Positions 33,039 to 36,835 of a DNA stretch of 64,000 nucleotides are shown here, in pieces. Location of the stretch: positions 1 through 64,000 of the forward strand of contig JAXHVO010000130.1 in assembly GCA_034189135.1 (NCBI GenBank), in the 5' to 3' direction. The notes under the pieces were generated by a model that saw only the letters and a program-made list of their open reading frames with translations, was not told the origin of the DNA and searched no databases. Position 1 is the stretch's first letter. Every line of letters begins with the position of its first letter. This DNA is from Thermodesulfobacteriota bacterium. GTDB taxonomy: Bacteria; Desulfobacterota; Desulfobacteria; Desulfobacterales; JAUWMJ01. The position numbers were made by a program, and so were the translations under genes.

Positions 33039-33872
33039 TCAGGCAGCCTCTGCAAATGGATGAGGAAGGTTGTAATAAACTTCATCCGGTGTCAGATTGT
33101 CAAGGGCCTGGTGAGAACGTTCCTGGTTGTAAAACCTAAACCATTCCTTGAGTCCGTTTCGTAATTGCATGCCATGATCGAAAGCATGCAGGTAAAGATA
33201 GTGATACTTAACCGTCCACCACAGGCGTTCAATGAAAATATTGTCTTGGACACGGCCTCTGCCGTCCATGCTGATTTTGATATTCTGATGTTTTAAAACA
33301 TCGGTAAAAGCACTGCTGGTAAACTGGGCTCCTTGATCCGTGTTGAAGATTTCAGGTGCACCGAATCGATGAATAGCTTCTTCCAAAGCCTCAACACAAA
33401 AGTCAGCATCCAGGGTATTGGAGACACGCCAGGATAAGACTTTACGGCTGTTCCAGTCCATGACAGCCACAAGATACATAAAACCACGGCTCATGGGAAC
33501 ATAGGTGATATCTGCCGCCCACACTTGATTTGGGCGGTTAATATTTAAGTTTCTAAGGAGATAGGGATATACCTTGTGAGCCGGATGTGGGCGACTGGTC
33601 CTGGGTTTTGGATAAATAGCTTCAAGGCCCATGAGGCGCATCAGCCGCTGAACACGCTTGCGATTGATTTTATATCCCAGCCTGCGCAGATGGTTCCTCA
33701 TGGAGCGACTGCCCCATGTGGGTGTTTTTAGATACTGTTTATCGATGAGTTCCATCAGTTTTAAGTCTTCGGGCTTTATCGGTTTCTTTTTATAGTAATA
33801 CGTGGATCGATTGATATTCAGCAGTGGGCATTGTCGGAAGATACTCAGATTCTGGCAGGCAGGATCGACCAT
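33039..33872 (-). CDS. IS3-family transposase orfB (DDE)
   Basis: The 277-aa protein has the N-terminal HTH_21 region (YYYKKKPIKPEDLKLMELI) and the rve integrase core with the DDE triad: WAADITYVPM (D), NTDQGAQFTSSAF (D) and DNIFIERLWWTVKYHYLYLH (E). The open frame extends upstream of ATG 33872 (FLKRKQRQG), as expected for an orfB normally made as an OrfAB fusion by -1 frameshifting. It appears intact. Confidence 0.92.
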   Translation of the reverse strand: MVDPACQNLSIFRQCPLLNINRSTYYYKKKPIKPEDLKLMELIDKQYLKTPTWGSRSMRNHLRRLGYKINRKRVQRLMRLMGLEAIYPKPRTSRPHPAHKVYPYLLRNLNINRPNQVWAADITYVPMSRGFMYLVAVMDWNSRKVLSWRVSNTLDADFCVEALEEAIHRFGAPEIFNTDQGAQFTSSAFTDVLKHQNIKISMDGRGRVQDNIFIERLWWTVKYHYLYLHAFDHGMQLRNGLKEWFRFYNQERSHQALDNLTPDEVYYNLPHPFAEAA

Positions 33873-33892
33873 TCCCTGCCGCTGTTTGCGTT

Positions 33893-34174
33893 TCAGAAAC
33901 CGAGTTTGCGTGATAAAAAATCGTTTTCAACCTTCAGTTGTCCGATTTGCCGGTGAAGTTCATCAATCTTAGCATCCACCTGTTTGCGAGATTTATTGCC
34001 TTTGCCAAATGAGTCGGCGGCATTTTAAACCAGAGCTCGCTTCCAGGCGGCGATCATAGTCGGATGTACGCCAAATCGTTGAGATAATTCTGCGGTTGTC
34101 TGTTCGTTTCTTAAAGCCGCTAACGCGACTTTGGCCTTGAATTCGGGACTATACTTTTTTCGCTTGTTGCTCAT
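33893..34174 (-). pseudogene. IS3-family orfA interrupted by a nonsense codon
   Basis: From ATG 34174 the frame encodes a helix-turn-helix (SPEFKAKVALAALRNEQTTAE, LSQRFGVHPTMIAAWKR) and then meets TAA at 34025-34027 after 49 codons. Homology continues in the same frame past it (NAADSFGKGNKSRKQVDAKI, then the leucine-zipper end VENDFLSRKLGF) to TGA 33893-33895. A single AAA-to-TAA change explains this, so the transposase fusion is probably no longer made from this copy. Confidence 0.85.
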
Positions 34175-34257: not shown

Positions 34258-35019
34258 ATGAATTTTTTTTTGATGATAGTGTGTTTTTTTCTTCTGTTAG
34301 GAACAGCGAATGCCCAACACATGACCGAGGTGAATGTTAGATATGATTCTCGTTATTTTCCAGAATTTGTTTATGGCAGAGGAGGATCTGAGGGGCATTC
34401 GGGTGCATACATTCAAATTGTTGCTGGAATAGACGGATACAATGATTTCAGTAAAATCAGAGTTAAAGCCAAACATATAGCCAGTGACTTTGAGGTTAGC
34501 CTTGTAGAACAACCCTCTGCATGTATTGGAGGATGGCCTTTTGATAATGTTGATCAATACTTTGTTATTTGGCTTCGACCAGATCAATCGTGAATGACAG
34601 GTAAATGGAGAATTATTTTAAAATACGAGAAAAATGGTACAAAAGAAAAAGAGACAAAGGCCGTTATGGTTCCTCGTTTCAACTTTCCACCAGAGCCAAC
34701 GGGGATTCAGCTTGCGAATTGGAATGGAAAAACTTGGATTGTTTGGAATAGAATTGGAGATCCGGGTAATTCTGGAAAACACGTTGAGTACCGAATTGCC
34801 CATTTTACAACACCTGCCCCGCATTGCATGGACGACTGGTTAGTTATTCAGGAGGGAGGACCAACGTATTATGAGTTGTGGAGCGGCAACAGAATTGCAG
34901 TGGAACTTCCCACTAATTGGGTATCAGGAGATTTAATAAGAATTGAGAACAGGGTTTACGACGACATGGATGGAGTCTATCGAAATGACAGGGGAACCAG
35001 ATTTTTCTTTTTGCCCTAA
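34258..35019 (+). pseudogene. Exported protein gene interrupted by in-frame TGA
   Basis: ATG 34258 begins a signal peptide (MNFFLMIVCFFLLLGTANAQ) and a beta-rich region. At 34591-34593 a TGA follows IWLRPDQS, then the same frame continues without break as MTGKWRIILKYEKNG... to TAA 35017-35019 (253 codons in all). The sequence reads best with Trp at the TGA (QS-W-MTGKW), so a TGG-to-TGA nonsense change is likely. No SECIS-like hairpin is seen just after it and there is no redox motif, which argues against Sec. No family recognised. The gene starts 12 nt after the IS3 end and its original promoter may have been displaced. Confidence 0.65.
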
Positions 35020-35105: not shown

Positions 35106-35272
35106 CGTCTTTGCCCTACCTTTCATTAAAAAATATTATCCAATATACACCATCTCACGGCCTTTTAAAACCGCATGATAAATCAATACAAATAATATCT
35201 TATGATTATTGATGTTTTGTTTTTACAGGTTGGATATACGGTTGGAAATTGTATTTTCAGACATGAAAAAAG

Positions 35273-35380
35273 GGCTTACAATTTCTTGTAACCCCTTTAT
35301 TAAGTAGTGGCGGCGACGATCCCGCTTTTCGGCGGGAAACTCGCGACCTTCCCGTCAGGACTGACGGGAAGGTCTAACCA
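35273..35380 (-). pseudogene. tRNA-Asp-like 3' copy with two palindromic insertions and terminator
   Basis: Read on the minus strand, TGGTTAGA (35380 end) leads into a 20-nt palindrome TCCCGTCAG-TC-CTGACGGGA (35350-35369) where the anticodon arm should be, then GGTCGCGAGTT, a second palindrome TCCCGC-CGAAAA-GCGGGA (35320-35337) in place of the T loop, then an acceptor-like end with CCA (35308-35310). A terminator hairpin follows (to 35273). It cannot form a working tRNA. Confidence 0.7.
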
Positions 35381-35386
35381 GTTTTT

Positions 35387-36050
35387 CAATGAATATTTTG
35401 CTTTTACGGTTTTTTACGTATGCTTCTCTTTGTTTTCATCTCTAAACGCTCTGATTTAATTTCCTAAGCCCTTTTTTCAGCTCAATCATAAGTAGCTCCT
35501 TGAGTCCTCATTTGAAGAAGTTGTTGAAATAGGATATGGGGTCGGTCACTCGTATTTTACCCTTGTCATAGGGTCTCTTTATTTCCGCAACAATCTGTAT
35601 GGCCTTTTTGGGGTTAAAGTTGTTTTGTCAACCTGCCGGGGACCTCCTACTAAAACCATCTTTCTTTTCAGATCATTCAGAATATGTGATGCTATATAGC
35701 GCATATGTCTATTTTACCCATAGTTCCAAAACAGCCAAGGCTATTTTGGATTCAAGGTACAGAAATAAAAAACTCCACCGGCATTTTAGATGAACCTGAT
35801 GGGGTTATATATATCAAATCCTAGCCTCAGGCAGAAAAAAGATTTACCCATTAAAAAGTGCGAAAGGTTCTTGACACTACCATAATCAAGAATTTTCCCC
35901 ATTGCCCATAGCTCAAATATGATCTGCAATTCTCCACCACTTTAAATCTGAAAGCGCTATCATATACGACTGCCAGCACAAAATAATTTACCCTGAATTG
36001 TCCCCTTTTTATGGTGGGGATAGTTGTGGGGACGGCAAAAAATAGCCATT
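35387..36050. other. Intergenic stretch without a supported gene
   Basis: Between two tRNA-Asp-like copies. A 64-codon frame at 35599 exists but has no ribosome site or recognisable domain, so I see nothing coding here. The sequence is AT-rich. Confidence 0.5.
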
Positions 36051-36052
36051 AA

Positions 36053-36156
36053 AAAAGGGCTCACAATTTCTTGCAAACCCTTTATTTAGTAGTAGCGGGG
36101 ACGACGAGACTCGAACTCGTGACCTTCCCGTCAGGACTGACGGGACGTTCTAACCA
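36053..36156 (-). pseudogene. tRNA-Asp-like 3' copy with palindromic anticodon arm, fused to the GIY-YIG gene
   Basis: On the minus strand it begins in the D-loop (TGGTTAGAACG, 36156-36146), continues with palindrome TCCCGTCAG-TC-CTGACGGGA (36126-36145) replacing the anticodon arm, then matches tRNA-Asp exactly or nearly so through the T arm and acceptor end (36093), with CTA instead of CCA. A terminator (AAAGGGTTTGCAAGAAATTG..., 36053-36085) follows. The TAG in TTAGAACG is the stop codon of the upstream GIY-YIG gene. Confidence 0.75.
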
Positions 36157-36404
36157 GTGCAATCCTTAATCAAGGTTTTTATATAATCTTTATTCTTTCT
36201 ACGTTTAATTGCATTTTCTCTTTTCATTGCACTGGATCTGTCCGGATGTTCTTCATGGTAAACCAACTTCCAGGGGCGCTTTGGTTTAGTATATTTTGTA
36301 CGGCCCTGGTTGTGACGTTCAATCCGGGATTGCAAATCCTGTGTTGAACCGACATAGTAGGTTCCATCCTTAAAGCTTTTCAGTATGTAAACATAATAAG
36401 CCAT
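36150..36404 (-). CDS. Small GIY-YIG nuclease
   Basis: ATG 36404 gives an 84-aa protein that is nearly just the catalytic domain: YYVYILKSFKDGTYYVGSTQD (the GIY-YIG strands appear as YVYIL and YYVG), then Arg in LQSRIERHNQG, Lys/Arg-rich TKYTKPKRPW and the metal-binding Glu in MKRENAIKRRK. It belongs to the UPF0213/YhbQ-like stand-alone group. It starts right after the tRNA-Asp terminator and ends inside a tRNA-Asp-like copy: the TAG stop at 36150-36152 lies in copied D-loop sequence. This placement suggests a nuclease that moves with, or creates, tRNA duplications. No ribosome site is obvious. Confidence 0.88.
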   Translation of the reverse strand: MAYYVYILKSFKDGTYYVGSTQDLQSRIERHNQGRTKYTKPKRPWKLVYHEEHPDRSSAMKRENAIKRRKNKDYIKTLIKDCTG

Positions 36405-36410
36405 AAAAAG

Positions 36411-36446
36411 AAAAGGCCTGTCACTTATGATATATGACAAGCCTTG
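36411..36446 (-). terminator. Terminator of tRNA-Asp
   Basis: On the minus strand AAGGCTTGTCA pairs with TGACAGGCCTT, followed by TTCTTTTT, about 10 nt after the tRNA-Asp 3' end and directly before the GIY-YIG start codon. Confidence 0.7.
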
Positions 36447-36454
36447 TTGATTAC

Positions 36455-36533
36455 TGGCGGGGACGACGAGACTCGAACTCGCGACCTCCGGCGTGACAGG
36501 CCGGCGTTCTAACCAAAACTGAACTACGCCCCC
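36455..36533 (-). tRNA. tRNA-Asp (anticodon GTC)
   Basis: The 79-nt minus-strand sequence folds as a cloverleaf: acceptor GGGGGCG with CGTCCCC (one G-U), D arm GTAGTTCAG...GGTTAGAAC, anticodon arm CCGGC-CTGTCAC-GCCGG, T arm GCGAG-TTCGAGT-CTCGT-like, and encoded CCA at 36455-36457. It is the intact model for the degenerate copies around it. Confidence 0.92.
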
Positions 36534-36579
36534 GAATGATAATGTGGTAAAATATTAATAAATTAAATCAGTAAATCTT

Positions 36580-36640
36580 AACTCGCGATCTTCCCGTCAG
36601 TCCTGACGGGACGTTCTAACCATAACTGAACTATGCCCCC
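36580..36640 (-). pseudogene. tRNA-Asp-like 5' copy with palindromic anticodon arm
   Basis: The 5' part (GGGGGCATAGTTCAG..., 36640 down) matches tRNA-Asp through TTAGAACG, then palindrome TCCCGTCAG-GA-CTGACGGGA (36592-36611) replaces the anticodon arm, followed by GATCGCGAGT where homology stops. The acceptor 3' strand is missing, so no functional tRNA results. Confidence 0.75.
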
Positions 36641-36653
36641 TAAACGAGGGATA

Positions 36654-36729
36654 TGGTAGGCGGAACAGGGCTTGAACCTGTGACCCTCGGCTTGTAAGGC
36701 CGATGCTCTCCCAACTGAGCTACCCGCCC
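36654..36729 (-). tRNA. tRNA-Val (anticodon TAC)
   Basis: The 76-nt sequence has acceptor GGGCGGG with TCCGCCT (two G-U), D arm GCTCAGTTGGGAGAGC, anticodon arm TCGGC-CTTACAA-GCCGA, T arm ACAGG-TTCAAGC-CCTGT and CCA at 36654-36656. Confidence 0.93.
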
Positions 36730-36754
36730 GTGAAAATATCTGCCACTTTATTGT

Positions 36755-36835
36755 AGCTTGTGAGTGAAACAGGCTTGAACCTGTGACTCTCCCGTCTGGA
36801 AAGACGGGATGCTCTCCCAACTGAGCTACCCGCCC
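36755..36835 (-). pseudogene. tRNA-Val-like copy with palindromic anticodon arm
   Basis: It matches tRNA-Val from GGGCGGGTAGCTCAG (36835 down) to GAGAGCA, then TCCCGTCT-TTCC-AGACGGGA (36790-36809) replaces the anticodon arm. The T arm CACAGG-TTCAAG-CCTGT is kept, but the acceptor 3' strand is degenerate and there is no CCA. The replaced arm has the same outer stem as in the tRNA-Asp-like copies. Confidence 0.75.

Follow-up and report, generated by a model that had tools for sequence, protein, structure and literature searches.

Displaced tRNA copies with palindromic anticodon arms as probable footprints of a minimal GIY-YIG insertion element

Here we describe four tRNA-like copies, each with a palindrome in place of its anticodon arm, that lie among intact tRNA genes in a 64,000-nucleotide stretch of a Desulfobacterales genome (the window). 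These copies are probably the footprints of a minimal tRNA-gene insertion element with GIY-YIG homing. The pattern is real and recurrent, a variant of tRNA-gene insertion in which the inserting element is a minimal GIY-YIG unit, and it is apparently new to the literature: no description of such elements was found in the literature searched, subscription journals and most preprints lying outside its scope. An earlier note on this DNA had proposed a tiny palindromic mobile element. The in-place arm swap and a mobile element both hold up, but the palindrome alone does not appear to be the mobile unit, because a GIY-YIG unit of about 0.36 kb inserts in a tRNA gene and restores its 3′ half. If true, this would explain the tiny GIY-YIG genes of unknown function that crowd tRNA genes in Bacteroidota and Desulfobacterota, and would provide a very small tRNA-targeting element without an integrase. 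It would then be possible to test how a GIY-YIG protein consisting of the catalytic domain alone locates its target, and the exact, shared arm exchange presents a clear molecular puzzle.

Four tRNA-like copies in the window

All four copies are on the minus strand, where the order is copy 4, tRNA-Val, copy 3, tRNA-Asp, a GIY-YIG ORF, copy 2 and copy 1. Their TCCCGTC-N6-GACGGGA palindromes lie where the earlier note had placed them, at 35350-35369 (copy 1), 36126-36145 (copy 2), 36592-36611 (copy 3) and 36790-36809 (copy 4), against none expected from 100 dinucleotide shuffles. As also described there, a 20-nt hairpin takes the place of the 17-nt anticodon arm (tRNA positions 27-43) in every copy, and the flanks match tRNA-Asp in three copies and tRNA-Val in one.

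Copy 4 is a full-length tRNA-Val-like sequence (38.5 bits and alignment) whose anticodon arm has become TCCCGTCTTTCCAGACGGGA; the copy is genuine, but its tRNA-like part spans 36760-36835 rather than the 36755-36835 first given. Next come the intact tRNA-Val(TAC) at 36654-36729 and copy 3 (36580-36640), a 5′ part of tRNA-Asp that reaches the T loop and whose palindrome, when reverse-complemented, exactly matches those of copies 1 and 2. The intact tRNA-Asp(GTC) is located at 36455-36533, and its 3′ half was probably supplied by the element. In the gap between this gene and the ORF is a terminator-like hairpin (36413-36445) that is unlike the native tRNA-Asp flank of relatives. The ORF itself (36150-36404) encodes an 84-aa UPF0213-like GIY-YIG nuclease, and its TAG stop falls where copy 2 retains part of its D loop. 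Both copy 1 and copy 2 are 3′ parts of tRNA-Asp, each with its own terminator. Copy 2 (36093-36156), with the arm TCCCGTCAGTCCTGACGGGA, appears to be the displaced native 3′ part, and the terminator now behind it (36051-36083) matches the tRNA-Asp flank of element-free relatives and is likely the native one. Copy 1 (35308-35380) would be a second displaced 3′ part; its arm has been lengthened to a 13-bp hairpin by changes in the flanks, a second palindrome, TCCCGCCGAAAAGCGGGA, replaces its T loop at 35320-35337 as the earlier note had it, and the terminator behind it (35267-35300) is a near-duplicate of that of copy 2. A search for a GIY-YIG remnant ahead of copy 1 found none. The ORF, the 3′- and 5′-part character of the Asp copies, the inverse palindrome of copy 3 and the tRNA-Glu examples elsewhere in the genome are absent from the earlier note.

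Only the real tRNAs and copy 4 scored above threshold in an Rfam scan, and no amino acid could be assigned to copy 4. Matches to Teg49, mir-4766 and tmRNA fell far under their gathering scores and were dismissed. A normal anticodon loop is absent, most copies having a short loop in a 7-9 bp stem. Copy 1 folds far more stably than its shuffles (z -6.1), and copies 2 and 3 fold no better than theirs (z about -1). Beyond the cluster, the minus strand at 33039-34174 carries ORFs that by sequence resemble an IS3-type transposase (orfA-like at 34025-34174, integrase-core-like at 33039-33872), and the plus strand at 34258-35019 has two abutting ORFs (111 and 141 aa) with a TGAATGA junction, which may be one broken gene.

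Insertion into tRNA-Asp and the GIY-YIG unit

Many relatives have intact Val-Asp clusters with neither a palindromic copy nor a GIY-YIG ORF. In these element-free relatives, a terminator of the GGGGTTTAG..CTAAACCCC type commonly comes after tRNA-Asp, together with a flank that can be recognised. In seven of eight bearers, the window included, it is the palindromic copy that precedes this native flank, with scores of 27-43 (27 in the window) versus a shuffled maximum of 19; the match failed in the tandem-array bearer L221. Behind the intact tRNA of the bearers we found an unrelated terminator (scores 12-21 versus a shuffled maximum of 17) and, in most, the ORF as well. A native flank behind the copy and a foreign one behind the intact gene therefore indicate an insertion of about 362 bp into tRNA-Asp. 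In the window the insert runs from 36125 to 36487, as measured from a position in copy 2 to its counterpart in the intact tRNA-Asp. From these flank comparisons, the reading that an element inserted into tRNA-Asp, re-supplied its 3′ half and displaced the native 3′ half is well supported. In the corresponding comparison for tRNA-Asn, most copies are without a T arm and the "free" set includes bearers. The native tRNA-Asp flank in many Desulfobacterales also contains a recurring TTTCCAACC..TATTTCCAACC motif that may be an arm site for an integrase, seen at L332, L341, L350 and L357 and behind the pseudo-copy of L223.

The 362-bp insert holds the GIY-YIG ORF alone, with no tyrosine or serine integrase. 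Its product corresponds to a GIY-YIG catalytic domain (PF01541, 71.3 bits) and matches the UPF0213 structures 1zg2 and 1ywl. Of 36 small GIY-YIG ORFs that lie directly downstream of an intact tRNA, 29 are themselves followed closely by a partial copy of that tRNA, and in 33 of the 34 cases with an assignment the upstream tRNA and downstream copy share their isotype. The stop codon of the ORF lies inside the pseudo-tRNA in Pedobacter as in the window, and tandem units of 344-357 bp, each comprising ORF, pseudo-tRNA and terminator, are present in Pedobacter cryophilus and Chryseobacterium. The nuclease clades follow tRNA isotype: the GIY-YIG tree requires 22 isotype changes compared with 57.4 when shuffled (0 of 200 shuffles), although its fine branches are unsure because the alignment has only 85 columns and includes near-copies. 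The sole informative close pair of tRNA-linked ORFs, L141/L159, gave a dN/dS of 0.06, the others being too diverged.

The palindromic arm and its recurrence

No further copy of the exact TCCCGTC palindrome was found in this genome outside the window locus, and a genome-wide TCCCG repeat was rejected on the same ground; TCCCG..CGGGA tRNA arms do occur in this genome, in relatives and in another phylum. A looser TCCCG palindrome gave 40 matches here versus 17 in the control, partly tRNA copies. The genome holds tandem tRNA-Glu 3′ parts in units of about 113 bp, each with a terminator and TCCCGCTTTGCAAGCGGGA arms, and a second tRNA-Glu copy with the arm TCCCGCTTTTCAGCGGGA, all of the TCCCGC..GCGGGA type. 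The tRNA-Glu array (G000:C6:18288-19015, L032) has no GIY-YIG ORF, and a single 5′-part copy lies across the intact tRNA-Glu from it. At G000:C103:90209-90284 (L361) of the same genome, a tRNA-Asn and terminator precede a further GIY-YIG ORF that begins at the end of the contig. Three further genomes also have Asp or Val copies; one belongs to the same genus and the other two to the same order.

Public genomes were scanned, without selection for GIY-YIG, for the pattern TCCCG-N8-11-CGGGA with a T arm behind it, which gave at least 116 stretches. Of the 116 matches listed, 51 are tRNA-like loci, mostly from Bacteroidota (Chryseobacterium, Pedobacter, Flavobacterium, Algoriphagus, Marivirga). 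Among these listed matches, a small GIY-YIG ORF lies within 1.5 kb of 31 of the 51 tRNA-like loci and of 2 of the 65 others, leaving 20 tRNA-like loci with palindromic copies and no nearby GIY-YIG. An assembly artefact, raised as a possibility earlier, is rejected because independent isolates show the pattern too, as do the complete genomes of Marivirga arenosa and Chitinophaga sp. E66.

The replaced interval is exact in most copies. When both hairpin flanks were matched to nearby intact tRNAs with no position prescribed, the interval was 27-43 in most TCCCG cases, covering Asp, Val, Glu, Ala, Arg, Pro, Lys, Met and Thr; it reads 27-44 in a few Arg copies. Loci reached through GIY-YIG rather than through the TCCCG pattern have the same arm replacement, so the result has a basis beyond the search pattern. 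In Asn and Met copies, TCCGC- or TCCCGCC-type palindromes replace 10 nt at 25-34, 56-65 or 38-47. The outer five stem pairs are constant across two phyla, Desulfobacterota and Bacteroidota, and the sixth is complementary in about 95% of 121 copies (AT 75, CG 27, TA 12), 37 of which are of the 5′ type. The interior is similar to the cognate anticodon loop, with the forward sense ahead of the reverse complement by 46 to 9. None of 5000 permutations reached this similarity overall or in Bacteroidota, whereas 240 of 5000 did so in Desulfobacterota alone, a weak signal. The cognate anticodon triplet is also found inside 11 of 72 palindromes versus 5.2 expected, again weakly (38 of 5000 permutations). 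The loop resemblance speaks against simple insertion of one foreign palindrome and fits an arm that has been re-stemmed. Inverted flanking palindromes, present in the window, were discarded as a general rule of the tRNA units. Elsewhere, the tRNA-Ser(TGA) at L056 (minus strand, near 588) has an intact anticodon arm and TCCCGACACTGTGTCGGGA as its variable arm, and around the ORF at 202-480 of L242, tRNA-Asn copies carry one palindrome in both the D arm and the anticodon arm, in opposite orientation.

Homing, rival explanations and known systems

Around this architecture, with its isotype matching, displaced native flank and exact 27-43 replacement, we infer nuclease-driven homing with predicted cutting of the cognate tRNA gene. 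The element of about 362 bp carries an isotype-matched tRNA 3′ half, a terminator and the ~84-aa GIY-YIG ORF, together with some ten bases of D-stem and then the palindromic arm. Cleavage by the nuclease would fall at or close to the anticodon arm of the matching tRNA gene, and the unit would enter when the break is repaired from a copy that bears the element. The resident 5′ half, completed by the anticodon arm and 3′ half of the element, would remain a working tRNA, while the native 3′ half and native terminator would be pushed downstream with the palindrome at positions 27-43. There, the palindromic arm may protect the displaced copy from cutting or from being read as a tRNA, and cutting and repair at palindromic cores could produce tandem expansion and 5′-type copies such as copy 3. 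Target choice by the nuclease is supported because its clades track isotype.

Several points weigh on homing. An 84-aa protein has scant space for a separate DNA-binding domain, which counts against it. The shared TCCCG stem across isotypes and phyla stands without explanation in the homing model, and 5′-type copies require one more step. Next to the ORF, the arm of the intact tRNA is still normal; should the arm be the target, another form of protection would be needed. The loci without GIY-YIG, like the tRNA-Glu array, indicate that copies can exist in its absence; such units may have lost it by deletion or may be served by a nuclease acting in trans. Recombination within the tRNA 3′ half that integrates a circular unit would fit the topology equally well.

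Rickettsia palindromic elements are small palindromes inside functional genes, longer repeats that occur in both protein and RNA genes; here, by comparison, displaced tRNA pieces have one short arm exchanged for another. Among nucleases, the nearest precedent is T4 SegB, a free-standing GIY-YIG homing endonuclease whose gene lies among tRNA genes, between tRNA-Arg and tRNA-Ile, and which targets and spreads the tRNA region (PMC2988022). SegB belongs to a phage tRNA intergenic site, whereas the unit described here splits and restores one bacterial tRNA gene, leaves a palindromic-arm fragment, is isotype-specific and is tandemly repeated. Traits of free-standing GIY-YIG homing endonucleases found here are the domain, element-free target sites and a lineage that follows its target. 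The Islander tRNA-gene islands share the split tRNA, the insert that restores it and the displaced fragment that marks the far end, and anticodon-centred crossover sites are common among such islands (PMC4383910). Islander islands, identified through a tyrosine integrase, peak in length at 13.6 and 39.9 kbp (PMC4383910), while the present unit is about 0.36 kb with space for the GIY-YIG ORF only, and its displaced fragment has a swapped arm.

Homing aside, it is possible but unlikely that a REP-like family of mobile palindromes is primary, with the GIY-YIG protein acting on hairpins or cruciforms and the palindromes invading or exchanging hairpin arms. REP/RAYT systems (PMC2817692, PMC3116915) likewise have palindromes beside a small nuclease gene, though the enzyme here is GIY-YIG and that of RAYT is Y1. 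In other GIY-YIG families the palindromes are sometimes inverted on both sides. Other palindromes do occupy displaced arms: Asn copies have TCCGCC..GGCGGA in the anticodon and T arms and Met copies have TCCGCT..AGCGGA, both as 10-nt replacements, copies at L211 and L218 have GATGCTGA..TCAGCATC, and the Asn T arm at L364 contains CCCTGAGCGTAGCCGAAGGG. Other GIY-YIG families lie between inverted dispersed CGTCATTCCCGC..GCGGGAATCC (L260, L282, L304, L308) or with inverted CCCTGTTAAAT..ATTTAACAGGG (L230, L234, L235, L252-255), and these observations together fit a REP-like partnership. The inverse palindromes of copies 2 and 3 and an excess of TCCCG palindromes over a reversed-pattern control in whole genomes point the same way. 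Against this, the exact palindrome is confined to one locus of this genome, some dispersed TCCCG hairpins resemble ordinary terminators, and the interior favours the cognate loop in forward orientation. Y1 (PF01797) transposase loci also speak against it, as none of 18 had a TCCCG palindrome while carrying other palindromes; RAYT was therefore rejected as owner of the TCCCG palindrome. One of eight genomes has 48 TCCCG palindromes and no Y1 match.

Selection on the arm within a transcribed tRNA-like RNA, which would stabilise or process the nuclease mRNA or act as a decoy, with a host factor binding UCCCG/CGGGA, seems quite improbable. The complementary sixth pair with its several pair types, the exact placement, loops similar to cognate loops, terminators behind the copies and the stable folding of copy 1 are all consistent with it. 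However, many copies lack one tRNA half, the folds of copies 2 and 3 are no more stable than those of their shuffles, palindrome copying predicts stem complementarity equally, and there is no candidate binding protein. Tandem tRNA duplication with neutral decay, in which quasi-palindrome correction by template switching perfects the old anticodon arm, is very hard to credit: tandem units, the grown hairpin of copy 1 and loop similarity to the original arm agree with it, but it cannot yield one TCCCG/CGGGA stem in nine isotypes and two phyla, and leaves both the displaced native flank and the isotype-matched ORF unaccounted for. Independent decay, already disputed in the earlier note, is likewise ruled out by the exact 27-43 swap in most aligned arm copies of about nine isotypes from two phyla.

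More broadly, we tentatively suggest that the homing unit may belong to a widespread, undescribed class of ~0.35-kb GIY-YIG mobile elements with isotype-dedicated lineages, which would split and restore tRNA genes by an integrase-free, nuclease-driven, hairpin-for-hairpin exchange of the anticodon arm and would be kin to a wider set of palindrome-partnered GIY-YIG genes resembling RAYT/REP. Separately, the GIY-YIG ORFs at L260, L282, L304 and L308 sit between inverted CGTCATTCC[CG]GC..GC[CG]GGAATCC, a dispersed palindrome, in a RAYT/REP-like architecture. In another GIY-YIG clade, at L230, L233, L234, L235 and L252-L255, the ORFs are bounded by inverted repeats of 11-13 bp (CCCTGTTAAATA..TATTTAACAGGG). 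As a positive control, the Y1 (RAYT-type) genes at L315, L319 and L322 lie amid inverted palindromes of other sequence, for example TCCTCGTTTGTAACGAGGA.
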